Source: Alloscardovia omnicolens DSM 21503
GTDB taxonomy: Bacteria; Actinomycetota; Actinomycetes; Actinomycetales; Bifidobacteriaceae
Assembly (NCBI RefSeq): GCF_000420505.1
Contig: NZ_ATVB01000001.1
Coordinates: forward strand, 1 to 64,000
DNA: 64,000 nt
Direction of reading: 5' to 3'
This document shows positions 35,076 to 50,829 of this stretch, in pieces. The position numbers and the translations under genes were made by a program. The notes beneath the pieces are model-generated. The model was not told the DNA's origin. It ran no database searches and worked only from the letters and a program-made list of their open reading frames with translations. The stretch's first letter is position 1. Each line of letters opens with the position of its first letter.

Positions 35076-35352
35076 TGTTCTCAAACATGGCGTGTTCAAC
35101 GCAGTCTGACTGGGAGCAGTGTGTTGCCATGCAGCACTCTTAAATCAAGAGCAATACCCCTTATGGTTGTGTGTGCTGCACGAGAAAGACGAAAGGTTAT
35201 GGTGTGCACAGCATACTGGCTAACCTTTTTTGGTTGACTGTGTGATGAACCAAAAATATCCCCAGGTCAAGTACAACCTCATTGCGACCAGCCTCAAGAC
35301 CCCAAAAATAACTCGCCATAGGGCAACCCACCATCTGCAAAAACCCTGACAC
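35076..35352 (-). repeat. Long intergenic repeat, copy 2 (inverted)
   Basis: Reverse complement of the repeat at 11949-12227, again about 280 bp. Its hairpin end is at 35076-35118 and its GTGTCAGGGTTTTTG end at 35338-35352. Both copies are in intergenic DNA and face opposite ways across about 22.8 kb. Confidence 0.75.
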
Positions 35353-35406
35353 ACCCTAGTTGCGTGTGCTATTGCTTTTACTAGGGCTGACTTAAAGGTT
35401 TTGGCT

Positions 35407-35447
35407 GTTGTAGTTTATGACACGTTGGACGTGTCATAAACTACAAC
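35407..35447. repeat. Perfect 19-bp-arm palindrome
   Basis: Arms 35407-35425 and 35429-35447 with a 3-nt loop. The arm reads GTTGTAGTTTATGACACGT. Partial copies occur at 35492-35519 and 24148-24176. There is no T-run, so this is more likely a repeat element or protein-binding site than a terminator. Confidence 0.9.
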
Positions 35448-35491
35448 AGTGAACACGCCACTTTTCAGTGTTCTACCCGTTGCAAGAGAGA

Positions 35492-35519
35492 ACCCGTTCA
35501 ACGTGTCGTCAACTACAAC
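35492..35519. repeat. Degenerate copy of the palindromic repeat
   Basis: ACCCGTTCAACGTGTCGTC followed by AACTACAAC, a slightly diverged right half of the palindrome 45 bp to its left. Confidence 0.65.
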
Positions 35520-35603
35520 GTAGCTATATAATTTCTCAGCGACATTACTCCCGCTACTCCCCCTTACGCCACTACTCACCGGCACACCGGCTACTCCCGC
35601 TGT

Positions 35604-36785
35604 TCACTCTATTCCCCCCCCCTGCTGCGCCACAAAACACGCAGCTAATTGCGCACGCTGCACATAAGATGCCACCTGAGAGTATTCTTCTGTACTGCTA
35701 TGTGCGCCTGTACCGCGAGCGCCGAGAGCGCATAATGTAGGAATACCTAATGAGCTGGTAATACCTGCGTCAGATACACCATTCACATGGCTAGCGTGGA
35801 TTGAGCCGTAGCCTATACGTCGTGCTGTTGCACTGAGTTTCTCAAAGAGTTTTTCGCTTTCGTCTGTGCACATCATGGCGTCCATAATGGTGCGAATATT
35901 CATGTGTGTGCGCGTATCTTCTACGTATGCAGTCTCAGATAGTTGTGTAAGCTCGTTAATAATGTAATCGCGTTGTTCTACCGTATCGAATCGTGCGCCG
36001 ATACTAACTTTTGCGTAGTCTGGTATGACGTTTTCGCCAATTCCGCCTTCTATTTTTCCACAGTTAAGAAGTATGCCATTATCTATATCGTTGAGTGCTT
36101 CTATAGCGATGATTTTGTGTGCTATATCGAGAATGGCTGATCGTCCTTCGCGCACTGCCATACCTGAGTGTGCTGCTTTACCGAAAACTTCAATGTCTAC
36201 AATCATGCCGCCTTTTCGGCTGAGCACAATGCCATCATCAAGCTGTCCAGTTTCAAAGTTGAGCACGTATTGGCTCGTTTGTGTGTGTTGTTGGATGATT
36301 TCTCGAGCGTTAGAAAACATATGGAGGTTTTCTTCATCACTGACTAACACGAGCTGCACTGGTTGTGTAAAAGTGCTGAGTTGGTTCAGAGCAATCAGTG
36401 TATAGACGGCGATGACTGCGCCTGGTTTCATATCGACAACGCCTGGCCCGTGCGCATTGCCATTATCGTCGATACTGAACGGGTGTTCAGCTGCTGTGCC
36501 GTCTGGGAAAACAGTATCCATATGTCCCAGGAAGCTGATGGGAGCTTGGCTCGTGTTGTCTTGATTAATATGCGCAACAAGTAGAGGCCCTGCTCCTTGA
36601 CTTGGTTCGAGTTGTACCTCAATTCCGTACTGTGCGAGCCGTTCGCTCAAAACTGTGGCGACCGCGGTTGTTCCTTCAATATTCCTCGATCCGCTATCTA
36701 TGTTGACGATGTTTTCAACAGTATCGATGATTTCTTGTTCGCGCTCGTGAAGAAAAGCGCTGATGATTGCGTCTGTTACGTTCAT
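35604..36785 (-). CDS. M20-family metallopeptidase (ArgE/DapE/CPG2 type)
   Basis: A cytosolic zinc amidohydrolase/peptidase of 393 residues. Metal-site motifs are complete: SFLGHMDTVFPDG (His88, Asp90), GPGVVDMKPG (Asp118), SDEENLHM (Glu151/152) and NFETGQLDD (Glu178). A dimerisation lid domain begins around FGKAAHSGMAVREGRSA (His206). It resembles carboxypeptidase G2 and N-acyl-amino-acid hydrolases. It is the third gene of the trpB operon, 20 nt behind the transporter. This suggests a substrate that yields tryptophan, such as a Trp peptide or N-acyl-Trp, but that is inferred only from context. Confidence 0.85.
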   Translation of the reverse strand: MNVTDAIISAFLHEREQEIIDTVENIVNIDSGSRNIEGTTAVATVLSERLAQYGIEVQLEPSQGAGPLLVAHINQDNTSQAPISFLGHMDTVFPDGTAAEHPFSIDDNGNAHGPGVVDMKPGAVIAVYTLIALNQLSTFTQPVQLVLVSDEENLHMFSNAREIIQQHTQTSQYVLNFETGQLDDGIVLSRKGGMIVDIEVFGKAAHSGMAVREGRSAILDIAHKIIAIEALNDIDNGILLNCGKIEGGIGENVIPDYAKVSIGARFDTVEQRDYIINELTQLSETAYVEDTRTHMNIRTIMDAMMCTDESEKLFEKLSATARRIGYGSIHASHVNGVSDAGITSSLGIPTLCALGARGTGAHSSTEEYSQVASYVQRAQLAACFVAQQGGGIE

Positions 36786-36805
36786 TGGTTTATCTTTTTA
36801 TAGGT

Positions 36806-37972
36806 TTAGAAATAGTTGACGACTGCGCCAGCCATAAGTACTGAGGCTATGGTGACGGTGATGATTCCAGCTACCAGCATTTTTGGTACGAGATAGTTTT
36901 CGATAGCTTGTTTCTGTGTGTCGTTGCTTGCTACGCTCGATGCCACTTCTTGAGGCATCACGAGTGTGGTTGGGAATCCGAATGTGCAGCTGATACCTAG
37001 GGTCATGGCGAGATATGGGCTGACGTGCAGGAGTTTACCTGTGAGGTAACTGAGTGCGAGCACCCCGATAACACCCATGCTCATAAAAAGGATGAGGGGA
37101 CCAACAATATGTGCAATCATGGCTGGGGTTACCGATGCCAGATTGGAGAAGATAAGCACTGTGACCAAGAACATGATTAGCCCATTAGATTGTGCTTTCT
37201 GCAGAATACCGGATTCGAGAAAACCTAGAGCGTATGCGATTGCTCCCACAATCAAGCACATCACAAAATAGTGCACTACCCCATGCGTTAAGCCTGCAAG
37301 CACATAACTGATTGCTGCGATCAATGAAAGTTTTGCTAAATATGTAGAAGCTTTCTGTTCTTTTTCAGGAATCTGTAACAGTTTAGGTTTTGTTGCACTG
37401 TCTGACTGGTTATCATGCGCGTACTGGGCAACAGCATTATTATCAGCTATAAAAGCGCGTGCTTCTTTCTTTAAGAAGTATGATGCTATAGGAATACCCA
37501 CGAACTTTTGGAAAATAAGTAGCCCCAAGCAGAAAGTAATAATTAATTCATACCCTTTTCCATCTAAAGCAGTGGTTATCAGCAGTGTTGCCGCACTTCC
37601 GCCCGCAAAAATCGGACTTCCCGCCAGTGCAAAATCAAACATATGGAAAGCGTAACCTGCAGCAAAAATCAAAGCTGTTCCACCCGCAACTCCTACTAGC
37701 GCAATAATAATAACCTTGATTTGTCGTTTCATTTCCGCAAAATCAAGCGTGGTAGCAAGCGATGTAATTAATAAACCGGCAATCAACGTACCAAAAGTTT
37801 TAATGCCTGTCGTTTCAAAAATATCTTTTGGCAATATTCCTGTCCAAAATCCTGCTAGCATGAGCACAGCTAGAGCGAGAACGCTCGAAATAGTTGCCCG
37901 AGTTTTGGACGCAATATACTCACTGAAGGCGAATAGTATCATTAATGCAGCCAGAGCGATAGTAGGAGCCAT
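36806..37972 (-). CDS. Multi-pass membrane transporter of unknown substrate
   Basis: A 388-residue protein with about ten to eleven hydrophobic segments and a charged central loop (about 170-200). Small-residue motifs such as SPIFAGGSAATLLITTALDGKG and a re-entrant-like FGFPTTLVMPQEVA near the C-terminus suggest a secondary transporter with inverted repeats, somewhat like GltS or related anion/amino-acid carriers. I cannot name the family. It lies between trpB and an M20 peptidase in one operon, with 31- and 20-nt gaps, under the trp attenuator. It therefore probably imports tryptophan, an aromatic precursor, or a Trp conjugate. Confidence 0.75.
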   Translation of the reverse strand: MAPTIALAALMILFAFSEYIASKTRATISSVLALAVLMLAGFWTGILPKDIFETTGIKTFGTLIAGLLITSLATTLDFAEMKRQIKVIIIALVGVAGGTALIFAAGYAFHMFDFALAGSPIFAGGSAATLLITTALDGKGYELIITFCLGLLIFQKFVGIPIASYFLKKEARAFIADNNAVAQYAHDNQSDSATKPKLLQIPEKEQKASTYLAKLSLIAAISYVLAGLTHGVVHYFVMCLIVGAIAYALGFLESGILQKAQSNGLIMFLVTVLIFSNLASVTPAMIAHIVGPLILFMSMGVIGVLALSYLTGKLLHVSPYLAMTLGISCTFGFPTTLVMPQEVASSVASNDTQKQAIENYLVPKMLVAGIITVTIASVLMAGAVVNYF

Positions 37973-38003
37973 AGTAGTGTCTTTCGTATTGTAGGTTTAG
38001 GAT

Positions 38004-39206
38004 TTATGCGCGTTGAGCCAAATAATCTTTTACTTGCTGTACGTCTTTGTCGCCACGCCCTGAAACGTTCACGATAATAATCTGGTCAGGGCTCATGTGT
38101 GGCGCGCGTTTGATAGCTTCTGCCAAAGCGTGAGAACTTTCAATGGCTGGCAAAATACCTTCAGTTTTGCTCAAGGTAACAAGAGCATCCACAGCTTCAT
38201 CATCGGTAGCTCCTGTATATTCAACGCGACCTGAATCTTTAAGGAAAGCGTGTTCTGGTCCTACTCCTGGATAATCTAATCCAGCAGAAATGGAATATAC
38301 TTCTGCAATCTCACCATTATCGTCAAACAGTGAGTAGGTTTTCATGCCGTCAATAATACCAATGCGTCCTTTTTCCATGGTTGCAGCGTGAAGAGGAGTA
38401 TCTAAACCTTTACCTGTTGCTTCCACGCCAATGAGACTAACGTTTTCATCGTCAATATATTGCGAGAATGCACCAATAGCATTCGAGCCTCCACCTACGC
38501 AGGCAATAACAGCGTCTGGCAAGCGACCTTCTTGTTCAAGAATTTGACGACGTGATTCCACAGAAATAATCTTTTGGAACTCGTGCACAATGCTTGGGTA
38601 AGGATGTGGACCTACTGCAGATCCGAGCACATAGAAGGCGTCGAGATCGTTCATCCATGCGGCGAATGCTGCGTCTACAGCATTTTTCAGTGTGGCTGTT
38701 CCATCCTCAACAGCATGTACGGTTGCGCCCATGAGTTCCATGCGGAAAACATTGAGTTGCTGACGTTGAGCATCGACTGCTCCCATATAAATATCGCATT
38801 GCATGCCGAAACGTGCTGCCGCTGCGGCTGTTGCTACGCCGTGTTGTCCTGCTCCAGTTTCAGCAATAACGCGGGTTTTGCCCATCCGTTTCGCTAATAA
38901 AATCTGACCGAGAACATTATTAAGTTTGTGAGAACCTAAATGATTGAGGTCTTCGCGCTTTAAGTACACGCGCGCGCCACCAAGATAGCGTGTGAGAGAC
39001 TCAGCATAATACAGTGGTGTTTCACGACCAGCATACTGCGCAAGTAATTGATGATATTGCGCAATGAATTCTGGATCATCCTTGGAAGCGTTGAAAGTTG
39101 TTTCTAACTCATCGAGCAGTTTTTGGATTGGCTCAGGAACGAAGCTGCCTCCAAATTCGCCGAAGTATCCTGCTGATGTGATTGGTTGAGCTGCTGTAGT
39201 GGTCAT
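38004..39206 (-). CDS. trpB: Tryptophan synthase beta chain
   Basis: Condenses indole and serine to tryptophan with PLP. The protein starts MTTTAAQPITSAGYFGEFGGSFVPEPIQ. EDLNHLGSHKLNN holds the PLP lysine, and GAGQHGVATAAAAARFGM and CVGGGSNAIGAF are the phosphate-binding loops. This is the TrpB1-type sequence, which normally partners TrpA. No trpA is next to it, so it either pairs with a TrpA encoded elsewhere or uses free indole. The ATG 39204-39206 is the likely start. The 30 extra upstream codons in frame overlap the attenuator and are not translated in my view. Confidence 0.94.
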   Translation of the reverse strand: MTTTAAQPITSAGYFGEFGGSFVPEPIQKLLDELETTFNASKDDPEFIAQYHQLLAQYAGRETPLYYAESLTRYLGGARVYLKREDLNHLGSHKLNNVLGQILLAKRMGKTRVIAETGAGQHGVATAAAAARFGMQCDIYMGAVDAQRQQLNVFRMELMGATVHAVEDGTATLKNAVDAAFAAWMNDLDAFYVLGSAVGPHPYPSIVHEFQKIISVESRRQILEQEGRLPDAVIACVGGGSNAIGAFSQYIDDENVSLIGVEATGKGLDTPLHAATMEKGRIGIIDGMKTYSLFDDNGEIAEVYSISAGLDYPGVGPEHAFLKDSGRVEYTGATDDEAVDALVTLSKTEGILPAIESSHALAEAIKRAPHMSPDQIIIVNVSGRGDKDVQQVKDYLAQRA

Positions 39207-39283
39207 CTTATGTTCTTTCTGTTCGTTATGTATTGGTTGTGTATGAGTGAAGGATTCATCAGAACCATTTAGAGAGAACATAT

Positions 39284-39413
39284 AAAAAATTCTCATCGTC
39301 TATCTAGATGAGAATTCTGCTGAGCCAAACAGTGGAGTGTAGCTTTCGAGTATCTCACATAGATACAGGTCCTGCTGAGGAATATGCATCTATGTGAGGA
39401 ACATACATGCAAT
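39284..39413 (-). promoter_or_regulatory. Tryptophan attenuator upstream of trpB
   Basis: On the minus strand, in order after the leader peptide stop: segment 0 (39413-39402), segment 1 (39398-39388), segment 2 (39364-39354), segment 3 (39316-39302) and segment 4 (39297-39288) followed by T6 (39289-39284). Pairing 1:2 is a perfect 11 bp. Pairing 3:4 is a perfect 10-bp intrinsic terminator. The alternative pairings are 0:1 (8 of 9) and 2:3 (9 of 11 plus a wobble). With Trp plentiful the ribosome reaches the stop, masks segment 0, and 1:2 plus 3:4 form, ending transcription. A ribosome stalled at the Trp codons leaves 0:1 and 2:3 free to form, so transcription continues. Confidence 0.88.
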
Positions 39414-39476
39414 CTATCCTTGCCAAGTGCGCCAAGCACGCCAGCTACGCCATGCGATGAGGGACAGATTACGCAT
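39414..39476 (-). CDS. trp leader peptide
   Basis: A 20-residue frame, ATG at 39474-39476 to TAG at 39414-39416, with four Trp codons in its second half (AWRSWRAWRTW, positions 9, 12, 15 and 18, each Trp two residues after the last). AAGGAG lies 6 nt before the ATG. No function as a protein is expected, since its translation reports charged tRNA-Trp to the attenuator that begins one base after its stop codon. It is too short for usual gene finding. Confidence 0.92.
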   Translation of the reverse strand: MRNLSLIAWRSWRAWRTWQG

Positions 39477-39674
39477 GCCATGCTCCTTTCTTGTTTGTGC
39501 GTTGCTATGAAGTTACCATAAGCCTTAGGAAAATAAAAATCATGTCGTCCACGATATGGGAATACCGTGTGTCGTAGGTATGAGTTCGCAGGGAATATCA
39601 ACACACCATACTCAACTTTTCAACGCCACTGCTTAGAGTAGTACTCGCAAACATTTAATTCAGAGAGGACTTAA

Positions 39675-42053
39675 ATGACTAGCAACGACGCACCTAACAC
39701 AACAGAAGCAAACAACACAGAAGCGTATTGGGATTCTCAGCTCAGTGTGGATGAGCGTGTGGCTGATCTGCTTTCACGCATGACATTGCGCGAGAAAATT
39801 GGTCAGATGTTACAACTCAATGCTCAGGATGATTTGGATGATATAGTTCTTGGCAAAACCGCTGGTTCTATTTTGCATACATCTCCCGCTGACTTATATC
39901 GAGCAAACGATTTAGTTCAACGCACTCGTTTGCGAATTCCTCTGCTAGTGGGTGATGATCTTATTCACGGTTATTCTTTCTATCCTGGTGCAACGATTTT
40001 CCCTGAACAGCTTGGTATGGCGTGCAGCTGGGATAGCGAAAAGATTGAGGAAGCTGCTCGCATTACTGCGCGAGAAGCTGTGACGACTGGCGTGCAGTGG
40101 ACTTTCTCCCCTGTCTTATGTATTTCTCGCGACACACGATGGGGTCGTGTAGGAGAAACTTTCGGAGAAGACCCTTATCTCATCGGCGAATTAGCTTCTG
40201 CTATGACTCGCGGATACCAAGGCGGCAGCATGACCAACTCCGACAAGCCGCTGGGAAAGAACTCGATTTTGGCTACTGCAAAGCATTTTGCCGGATATTC
40301 CGAAACTCAAGGCGGACGCGATGCTTCTGAAGCAGATTTATCTCACCGCAAGCTCGCCTCATGGTTCCTTCCTCCTTTTGAACGTGTGGCAAAAGAAGGT
40401 ATTGGCACGTTTATGCTGGGTTACGAGTCGATTGAAGGCGTACCTATTACCGTGAATAAATGGTTACTCAACGATGTTTTGCGCAATCAGTGGGGTTATA
40501 AGGGCACGCTTATTACTGATTGGGCTAATGTGAGCCGTTTAGTATGGGAGCAGCGCGTAATGCAAAATCCTGTGCAAGCAGCGGTTGCAGCAGTACGTGC
40601 AGGCAATGATTTGATTATGACTTCCCCTGAGTTCTTTGAAGCTACGTATGAGGCTGTTCAGCGAGGTCTGCTCGATGAAAGTGAGTTAGATGATCCAGTC
40701 AGCCGCATTTTGGCTTTGAAGTTCCGTATGGGATTATTTGAAGATCCTCGTCTGCCAGATGCGGATGCTGCTGCTCGTATTATTGGTAACGATGAACATG
40801 CTCAAGCTAATCTTGAACTAACCCGCGAAAGCATTACTCTGTTACGCAATGACGGTACTTTACCTCTTGAAGCTGCATATGGTTCTATCGCTTTGATTGG
40901 ATCGCTGATTGATGATGCTCAAACACAGTTGGGCGATTGGGCAGGAAGCTCAGGTCAAGTTGAGTGGATTAAAGATGGTCATCCACGCGAGAAAATTACA
41001 ACTATTAAAGACGGTTTAGAAAAACTTCTACCTGAAGGTTGGAGCATGACCACTGCTCAGGGAGCGAATATTATTGACCTCGTTCCAGATCCAGATGGCG
41101 AGTTTTATCCTGATGGGCAGCCTCGTCCTCTTGTAGGTCAAAGCGCTGCAATTGATCAACATCTTATTGATGAAGCCGTAGAGAACGCGAAGAACGCTGA
41201 TGTTGCCGTCGTTGTTGTTGGCGACGTTATACAGCTTATTGGCGAAGGCTGCTCTACAGCCACGTTAGAACTGTTAGGCGGTCAAAACGCGCTCATTGAT
41301 GCAGTAACTGCTACCGGCACTCCAACAGTTATTGTTCTTATGTCGAGTAAGCCTCAAGTTCTGCCTGACAGCGCTCTACAAGCTAACGCTCTGTTATGGG
41401 CTCCAAGTCCGGGCATGAAGGGTGGCCAAGCGCTCGCCGAAATCGTCTATGGTGTGGTTAATCCATCAGGTCGTTTACCTATTACTTTCCCTCGTCATGC
41501 TGGTCAATTGCCTGTATATTACAACCAGATTCGCGGTCAGCATGGTAACCGTTATGCAGATTTGACGCAAGACCCAGCTTTCGCTTTTGGAGAAGGTTTA
41601 TCGTATACGAGTTTTGAATATGGCGATATTACCCTATTGGGCACTCATCGTGCTCAAGAAAGTGTCGAAGATATTTCGAGTACTGTATGGGCTATGCCAG
41701 ATGAGAATACTCCACAAGTAACTGTTCCTGCGTATGCTCATGGAGAAGTAATTCATGCACAGATTGACGTAACCAATACAGGTAAACGCTCAGGCACGGA
41801 AATCGTGCAACTGTATATTGGCGATATTGTAACGTCAGTGAGCTGGACAGATCGTGAACTGAAAGCATTTAAGCGCATTACTTTAGAAGCCGGAGAAACT
41901 CGCACTGTGGAGTTCAATATTCCGGTGTCTGACTGCTCTATTGTAGATGCTCAAGGTCATCGAATTGTAGAAAATGGCGAATTTGAAGTTCTTATTGGTC
42001 ATTCTTCTTGGCGAAGTGATCTTCAGCGAGCAGTTTTCGCAGTCCACGATTAA
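39675..42053 (+). CDS. GH3 family beta-glucosidase
   Basis: A 792-residue glycoside hydrolase family 3 enzyme without a signal peptide, so probably cytosolic, acting on beta-gluco-oligosaccharides or glycosides after import. The N-terminal TIM barrel has SRDTRWGRVGETFGEDPYL (about 151-169), the KHFAGY motif, and GTLITDWANV with the nucleophile Asp282. The alpha/beta sandwich follows (ESITLLRNDGTLPLE, GYxxGQ-like region), and a fibronectin III-like C-terminal domain contains VTNTGKRSGTEIVQLYIGD. It converges with a GH5 gene across a hairpin terminator. Confidence 0.9.
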   Translation: MTSNDAPNTTEANNTEAYWDSQLSVDERVADLLSRMTLREKIGQMLQLNAQDDLDDIVLGKTAGSILHTSPADLYRANDLVQRTRLRIPLLVGDDLIHGYSFYPGATIFPEQLGMACSWDSEKIEEAARITAREAVTTGVQWTFSPVLCISRDTRWGRVGETFGEDPYLIGELASAMTRGYQGGSMTNSDKPLGKNSILATAKHFAGYSETQGGRDASEADLSHRKLASWFLPPFERVAKEGIGTFMLGYESIEGVPITVNKWLLNDVLRNQWGYKGTLITDWANVSRLVWEQRVMQNPVQAAVAAVRAGNDLIMTSPEFFEATYEAVQRGLLDESELDDPVSRILALKFRMGLFEDPRLPDADAAARIIGNDEHAQANLELTRESITLLRNDGTLPLEAAYGSIALIGSLIDDAQTQLGDWAGSSGQVEWIKDGHPREKITTIKDGLEKLLPEGWSMTTAQGANIIDLVPDPDGEFYPDGQPRPLVGQSAAIDQHLIDEAVENAKNADVAVVVVGDVIQLIGEGCSTATLELLGGQNALIDAVTATGTPTVIVLMSSKPQVLPDSALQANALLWAPSPGMKGGQALAEIVYGVVNPSGRLPITFPRHAGQLPVYYNQIRGQHGNRYADLTQDPAFAFGEGLSYTSFEYGDITLLGTHRAQESVEDISSTVWAMPDENTPQVTVPAYAHGEVIHAQIDVTNTGKRSGTEIVQLYIGDIVTSVSWTDRELKAFKRITLEAGETRTVEFNIPVSDCSIVDAQGHRIVENGEFEVLIGHSSWRSDLQRAVFAVHD

Positions 42054-50711: not shown

Positions 50712-50792
50712 TACCGAGTCCTGGGGAGTCGCGTGACTGAGAATAAAACCCATTGAACCTGATCTGATTAATACCAGCGAAGGAAGTGACGA
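50712..50792 (+). ncRNA. TPP riboswitch (THI element)
   Basis: The conserved core is present in order: CTGGGGAG, ACTGAGAATAAAACCC, GAACCTGATCTG-TTAATACC and AGCGAAGGAAGT. These are the P2/P3 and P4/P5 elements that bind thiamine pyrophosphate. It precedes ykoF by about 80 nt, where a hairpin can hide the ribosome-binding site. It therefore represses ykoF translation, and formerly the whole transporter operon, when TPP is abundant. Confidence 0.93.
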
Positions 50793-50829
50793 GCACAAAA
50801 CGAGTGTACACCACTCAAGGAGTGCAACG

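Follow-up and report, generated by a model that had tools for sequence, protein, structure and literature searches.

Results

Gene Order and Leader RNA

The window analyzed here, a stretch of 64,000 nucleotides (nt) from Alloscardovia omnicolens DSM 21503 (contig NZ_ATVB01000001.1, positions 1 to 64,000), carries on its minus strand a tryptophan (Trp) leader peptide, an attenuator, trpB, a transporter gene, and an M20 hydrolase gene, in this order. The leader open reading frame (ORF; 39414..39476, on the minus strand, as is everything in the run) encodes 20 amino acids, MRNLSLIAWRSWRAWRTWQG, followed by a stop; four of its last 12 sense codons are TGG, and an AAAGGAG ribosome-binding site lies upstream. 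Behind it come segment A (39401..39411), the proposed partner of B while a ribosome is stalled at the Trp codons; segment B (39385..39398), which forms a 14-pair hairpin with C in the OFF state; segment C (39354..39367), whose proposed ON-state partner is the 5′ arm of the terminator; and the intrinsic terminator itself (segment D; 39284..39318), with a 12-pair stem and a T run. The three genes that follow encode a tryptophan synthase beta subunit of 400 amino acids (trpB; 38004..39206), a transporter of 388 amino acids with a CitS-like elevator fold (36806..37972), and a carboxypeptidase G2-like M20 metallohydrolase of 393 amino acids (35604..36785). An earlier note on this DNA had described them as consecutive behind the attenuator, and all parts lie where it placed them, with 31 nt between trpB and the transporter gene and 20 nt between the latter and the M20 gene. 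On the minus strand of the gene run, a consensus scan picked up just one site resembling a terminator, which is weak (5 pairs) and falls in the last part of the transporter gene (36830-36817). The scan is a weak test, as it missed the attenuator's own terminator, which has a 9-nt loop, and as its counts over 35200-39700 were at chance level (4 terminator-like sites vs. 3.5 expected and 8 promoter-like sites vs. 7.6 expected).

The window leader is not reported by Rfam at gathering thresholds. Its RNA folds at -71.9 kcal/mol, vs. -54.2 +/- 4.4 kcal/mol for dinucleotide shuffles (z -4.0), and is more stable than all 200 of them. The 5′ arm and loop of the terminator carry TCTAGATA, which is complementary to part of segment C. 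We folded this leader together with those of four congeners and of Streptococcus moroccensis, all introduced below: with A held unpaired, the computed structure is the B:C hairpin plus the terminator in all six, and when the transcript is cut off within the terminator loop and A is forced to pair with B, all six have C bound to the 5′ arm of the terminator. The unconstrained minimum-energy fold is the OFF state in five leaders and A:B plus the terminator in S. moroccensis.

Leaders in the Genus

The genus was sampled with five species, the window genome (G000) and G017, G029, G041, and G001, and the leader pattern has one match in each of the five genomes. In G017, the transporter and M20 genes come directly after a four-Trp leader and a terminator, the latter about 105 nt ahead of the transporter, and the locus has no trpB; within the genus, only here has the leader been kept in front of the pair in the absence of trpB. 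The trp genes of G017 lie elsewhere in its genome; frameshifts, perhaps errors of assembly, interrupt trpE and trpB as well as bglX. Between G000 and G017, the transporters are 81% and the M20 enzymes 74% identical, and both genes are under purifying selection, the proportions of nonsynonymous and synonymous differences (pN/pS) being 0.13/0.75 for the transporter and 0.18/0.78 for the hydrolase.

In G029, G041, and G001, the leader precedes a trpB that is 86, 87, and 84% identical to that of the window, respectively. A profile search of these three genomes found neither trpA nor trpC, and their trpB would thus make Trp only from indole of other origin. Some 500-750 nt past trpB, all three have an aldo/keto-reductase-like ORF and an antiporter-like ORF; the antiporter-like ORF of G029 matches PF03553, and its aldo/keto-reductase-like ORF, labeled by recognition, has no NCBIfam match at an expect value (E) of 1e-25. 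These three congeners also share a second conserved short ORF, MKRWRIL(V/S)AQEM and a stop, with a sequence resembling a ribosome-binding site, between the attenuator terminator and trpB (L029 6187-6225, plus strand; L030 7902-7864, minus strand; L031 6607-6645, plus strand); none was seen in the window.

The window genome has further trp genes. Contig C5 carries trpE, trpG, trpD, trpC, trpF, trpB, and trpA in a row (trpF named from below-cut-off matches), so that the window trpB, whose product passes the curated equivalog model TIGR00263 (601.9 bits vs. a cut-off of 392.45), is an additional copy that shares 59% identity with the one on C5. The absence of trpA and other trp genes asserted by the earlier note therefore holds within the window and fails for the genome; a genome without the rest of the pathway is not what we find, the trp genes being complete on contig C5.

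Leaders in Streptococcus

The closest relative of the transporter, 61% identical, is encoded by S. moroccensis, and the next gene there specifies an M20 enzyme 55% identical to that of the window. Upstream of the pair lie a leader (MHLSTGFSWQSWHR, then a stop), segments A, B, and C of the same type, and a terminator, and trpB is absent. Since the leader stands directly before the pair in both G017 and S. moroccensis, the Trp link of the pair is independent of trpB, and the proposal that transporter and hydrolase belong to the Trp-leader unit is supported.

A covariance model trained on the six leaders, five of the genus and that of S. moroccensis, matches 5 of the 151 genomes of the window's family, all five in the window genus, and 54 of the 284 Streptococcus genomes, S. 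moroccensis included (53 of the 283 others). Where a search covered more than 40 genomes, its filters were stricter and at most 30 or at most 16 candidates were scored per genome; the absence of a leader in such a search is therefore soft. For 29 of the 53 other Streptococcus matches, we checked what lies downstream: the longest downstream ORF is in every case like TrpX, the binding protein of a Trp ABC transporter (blastp identity of 55-91% to the ORF of L142, or L142 itself), and the L142 ORF passes the TrpX model NF041285 (466.7 vs. 390 bits). In all 29, the leader position is occupied by an ORF that has two or more Trp codons. Counted from where the leader match begins, the TrpX ORF starts no more than 210 nt away in 27 loci; the distances are 411 nt in L142 and 875 nt in L147. 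By model match, the RNA switch that is found elsewhere before a Trp uptake gene thus precedes the transporter and M20 genes in two distant groups, the window family and Streptococcus, which we take to belong to different phyla.

Among the 284 Streptococcus genomes, the transporter occurs in S. moroccensis only. The S. moroccensis leader has a mean identity of 0.74 (range 0.63-0.82, n = 29) to the streptococcal trpX leaders vs. 0.61-0.66 to the five genus leaders, in an alignment fitted to a model trained on the S. moroccensis leader among others. As this leader is nearer to those of trpX, we rejected the idea that leader, transporter, and M20 gene moved as one unit between the genus and Streptococcus; it is no less likely that the pair captured a local leader. 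The motif TAGATA is present in the terminator of all five genus leaders and downstream of C in just 2 of the 29 trpX loci, at other spacings; we therefore rejected TAGATA(C) as a general antiterminator partner, and the streptococcal leaders must use other sequence. In a search of 25 genomes of transporter relatives, the model has a strong match in S. moroccensis only. Weak matches were seen in Pediococcus ethanolidurans (L126; 29.7 bits), upstream of a TrpX-like ORF (42% identical) and without a two-Trp leader ORF, and in a Clostridium tetanomorphum genome (L127; 24.7 bits).

The Transporter and Its Hydrolase Partners

The earlier note had called the transporter a member of an unrecognised family, and we found no convincing Pfam or NCBIfam match either. 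Pfam returned no family at E 1 or E 10, and so no 2HCT sequence match, and NCBIfam none at E 10, in a search that covered five members of the transporter family at E 10 and the S. moroccensis member at E 1e-25. At E 0.1, 57 relatives hit 11 Pfam families, 2HCT not among them, and the matches were weak and inconsistent (PF09574 in 9 relatives, best 0.0057; PF03547 in 1, 0.0012). A distant relative on an Enterococcus plasmid, 33% identical, is annotated as "DUF819 family protein", a family name that we rejected because none of the 57 relatives has a DUF819 match at E 0.1. Scanning genome contigs with the single protein gave no relative; a profile scan of GTDB genomes succeeded and found 156 relatives, of which 80 loci, from many groups by their record titles, were kept.

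An AlphaFold (AF2) model built with 57 sequences has a predicted local distance difference test score of 88.4. Its best fold match is the 2-hydroxycarboxylate transporter CitS (9lsk_A; Z 27.1, root-mean-square deviation 4.0, 357 residues aligned) and its second best the Asp:Ala exchanger AspT (Z 23.0), with Na+/H+ antiporters at Z 13.5 or less. The fold is shared over the whole length with both CitS and AspT, and sequence identity in these structural alignments is only 13-16%. The modeled fold suggests an elevator carrier for a carboxylate.

The M20 enzyme has both expected domains above gathering score (PF01546, 80.9 vs. 24.6 bits; PF07687, 56.9 vs. 21 bits). Its best NCBIfam match, the glutamate carboxypeptidase model NF004788, falls short of the cut-off (214.2 vs. 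349 bits). The closest solved relative is carboxypeptidase G2 (E 3e-34), aligned over residues 14-391 and thus nearly the whole length, and the residues that we take to be its metal ligands and catalytic Glu are conserved.

Of 76 loci, 69 have a gene for an M20 or M38-like metallohydrolase ("M38" being the label that we presume for one hydrolase class) beside the transporter, and 7 have none by this test, in line with the suggestion that the family regularly keeps company with amidases and peptidases; the loci are mutually related, and the count comes with no random-gene control. "Beside" here covers the next 3 genes downstream on the same strand, provided that no gap exceeds 350 nt, and the 2 genes upstream on either strand; four of the 80 loci (L042, L059, L074, and L103), which had no called ORF at the position of the match, were dropped. 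Hydrolase classes were assigned by blastp to five representatives, with overlapping counts: the M20D amidohydrolase type (51 loci), the carbamoylase type (24), and the Xaa-Pro/M38-like type (15) are common, and carboxypeptidase-G2-like (3) and M20 dipeptidase-like (3) partners are rarer, the Xaa-Pro and M20-dipeptidase names resting on below-cut-off NCBIfam matches. At one locus of Lactiplantibacillus plantarum (L115 2615-7379), trpB and trpA are followed by about 370 nt with what we read as a terminator-like hairpin, and beyond these come genes for a transporter of the family and an M20D amidohydrolase; given that spacer and hairpin, we rejected the arrangement as independent support and take it as proximity only.

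T-Boxes at Transporter Loci

Rfam was run at gathering threshold on 65 of the 80 transporter loci (all but L059, L065, L068, L074, L077, L080, L086, L091, L093-L095, L099, L103, L110, and L116). T-boxes were found just upstream of a transporter and M20D pair in C. tetanomorphum (L045 4695-4933) and Marinisporobacter (L053 4682-4916); at what we assume to be the specifier position, the alignment reads CUC (Leu) in both. The T-boxes at L061 and L118 sit downstream of the transporter. A motif scan of the 700 nt upstream at all 80 loci gave further candidates at L041, L047, and L081, which are no T-boxes by Rfam, and marked L103, outside the Rfam scan, where the stretch looks like coding sequence.

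Discussion

We read the operon as a system for Trp scavenging under ribosome-mediated attenuation that imports an N-blocked form of Trp and releases Trp from it, and we would put the probability of this reading at roughly two-thirds (about 0.65). When charged tRNA-Trp is scarce, the ribosome would stall on the Trp codons of the leader, A would pair with B, and C would be free to pair with the emerging 5′ arm of the terminator; with termination thus prevented, trpB, the transporter gene, and the M20 gene would be transcribed. When Trp is ample, the ribosome would reach the stop codon and cover A, allowing the B:C hairpin and then the terminator to form. The transporter would import a carboxylate-bearing, N-blocked Trp compound, such as N-acyl-Trp or a Trp dipeptide; the M20 enzyme would hydrolyse it to Trp in the cytosol; and TrpB would add Trp made from indole and serine. 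Gene order, the leader, the computed alternative pairings, and the company of leader and pair in three genomes are observations, and comparison of sequences supports the regulation and the pairing; the substrate and direction of transport, a Trp response, antitermination in vivo, and the use of indole by TrpB are inferred. Three lines of reasoning converge on the imported molecule: a Trp leader implies that the product is Trp, a partner of the amidase/peptidase class implies an amide or peptide bond, and the CitS fold implies that the molecule is probably a carboxylate. N-acyl-Trp or a Trp dipeptide would fit leader, partner class, and fold alike.

A wider form of this reading, which to us has about even odds, is that the transporter is the founding member of an unnamed family whose CitS-fold proteins import N-blocked amino acids or dipeptides, each with a dedicated cytosolic amidase as its partner, and that interchangeable tRNA-sensing leaders placed before these genes name the amino acid delivered. 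Such control would then have been acquired more than once, as Trp peptide attenuators in the genus and in Streptococcus and, in Clostridium and Marinisporobacter, as T-boxes whose specifier we read as Leu.

Several observations weigh against the scavenging reading. Trp leader, transporter, and M20 gene come together in only three of the genomes found here; the co-occurrence anticipated by the earlier note holds in the window genome, G017, and S. moroccensis and fails at the next closest pairs, those of Anaerotruncus (51%) and Acidaminococcus (45%), which have no such leader. In G029, G041, and G001, leader and trpB occur without the transporter, and the M20 enzyme has no close homologue there, the best being a 25% partial match in one of them. 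T-boxes lie just upstream of the transporter in a mere 2 of the 65 scanned loci, and if both are specific to Leu, the family is not Trp specific. Carboxypeptidase G2 itself is a folate/glutamate enzyme. With the whole trp pathway at hand, the window genome need not depend on the cassette. As for the RNA, the terminator forms anyway in five of the six leaders when A:B is imposed on the full-length molecule, the congener G029 being the sole one to keep C with the terminator 5′ arm; the ON state thus needs co-transcriptional kinetics, and our proposal, which comes from computed folds, is that it is a kinetic, co-transcriptional state. Covariation gives mixed evidence. In favor of the switch, the B:C helix is 88.6% paired across 35 sequences and the covariation score of the structure was reached by none of 500 shuffles; against it, the alignment had been fitted to the leader model, and neither double-change pairs (224 of 500) nor pair types (138 of 500) were unusual by comparison with shuffles.

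Some of these points would suit a leader that serves trpB only, with the transporter and M20 genes as read-through passengers engaged in general peptide or amide scavenging: the leader and trpB do occur without the pair in three congeners, a strong leader match is confined to S. moroccensis among the 25 searched genomes of relatives, and T-boxes are rare at the scanned loci. We consider this unlikely, however, as G017 retains the leader before the pair without trpB, and S. moroccensis has a leader of the same kind before the pair, likewise without trpB. It seems similarly improbable that free Trp or some other indole compound is what the transporter takes up and that the M20 enzyme acts on a different, intracellular Trp conjugate. 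Such a role would agree with the same leader type standing upstream of trpX, the gene of a free-Trp ABC importer, in Streptococcus and with the amino acid substrates of the related fold AspT; the family-wide pairing with several amidase and peptidase classes suggests, on the contrary, that the enzyme cuts the transported molecule. Salvage of folate fragments is a still poorer candidate. In Escherichia coli, AbgT and AbgAB import and split p-aminobenzoyl-glutamate, and the likeness of the M20 enzyme to carboxypeptidase G2 would suit a comparable task; a Trp attenuator would hardly be the sensor to expect for it, however, the glutamate carboxypeptidase model scores far below its cut-off, and no folate gene was recognised in the gene run. 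Export or exchange of a Trp-derived conjugate, allowed by a direction unreadable from sequence and by the exchanger AspT as second-best fold, we regard as very improbable, since induction by a lack of Trp, should it prove real, points to a gain of Trp and not a loss.

Several known systems come close to the window cassette. The streptococcal trpX leaders resemble the window leader in matching the same covariance model, in their short Trp-codon peptide and A, B, and C segments, and in standing upstream of a Trp uptake gene; in contrast to them, the window leader precedes trpB and the genes for a secondary carrier and an M20 hydrolase. For trpX of Streptococcus suis, a Trp T-box has been reported, and the part of that report available to us describes no leader peptide (PMC9382623). 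The actinobacterial trp attenuators of Corynebacterium and Streptomyces likewise combine a Trp-codon leader peptide, a terminator, and an antiterminator, and in Corynebacterium diphtheriae such an attenuator also stands before a trpB2A operon (PMC1262725). Going by the accessible portion of the same study, these known attenuators precede trp biosynthesis operons or trpS, unlike that of the window, and neither a Trp attenuator in Bifidobacterium nor a transporter or hydrolase behind one is named (PMC1262725). A parallel in logic is an operon of Clostridioides difficile, in which a lysine riboswitch precedes yfcC and an M20D amidohydrolase gene, that is, an amino acid-sensing RNA stands before genes for a transporter and an M20-family amidohydrolase; it differs in its YfcC transporter, in the branch of M20, and in using a lysine riboswitch instead of peptide attenuation (PMC11477304). 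Substrates of transporters have also been deduced from T-box specificity, an established approach (PMC2494555). Given this approach and the C. difficile precedent, the window cassette is not a new category; a literature search limited to open-licence papers found no published description of the transporter–M20–Trp arrangement.

What is gained is a substrate prediction for a widespread transporter family that lacks a convincing Pfam or NCBIfam match, and an indication that a tRNA-sensing leader can reveal the product delivered by a transporter–amidase pair. If true, our reading would give these bacteria, in addition to synthesis and the uptake of free Trp, a regulated way of obtaining Trp from conjugates or peptides, and this could matter where Trp is contested, for example in the gut or on mucosa.

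Other Observations

In the window genome, the leader model finds only the window leader and a weak partial echo of that leader on the opposite strand, and by inspection we saw no Trp-rich ORF upstream of trpE on C5. In that place (L005 13147-13025, minus strand), there are a short ORF beginning with MTAQSSQPRFALSS that has no Trp codons and a terminator-like hairpin. The gap between the M20 gene and the next gene of the window holds a long inverted repeat (35398-35456 and 35492-35519) with 28-nt arms that are 89% complementary and 3 nt apart, accompanied by a partial further copy; it may be a mobile or terminator-like element. Elsewhere in the window, at 50712-50803 on the plus strand, lies a thiamine pyrophosphate riboswitch (Rfam RF00059, 56.1 bits).

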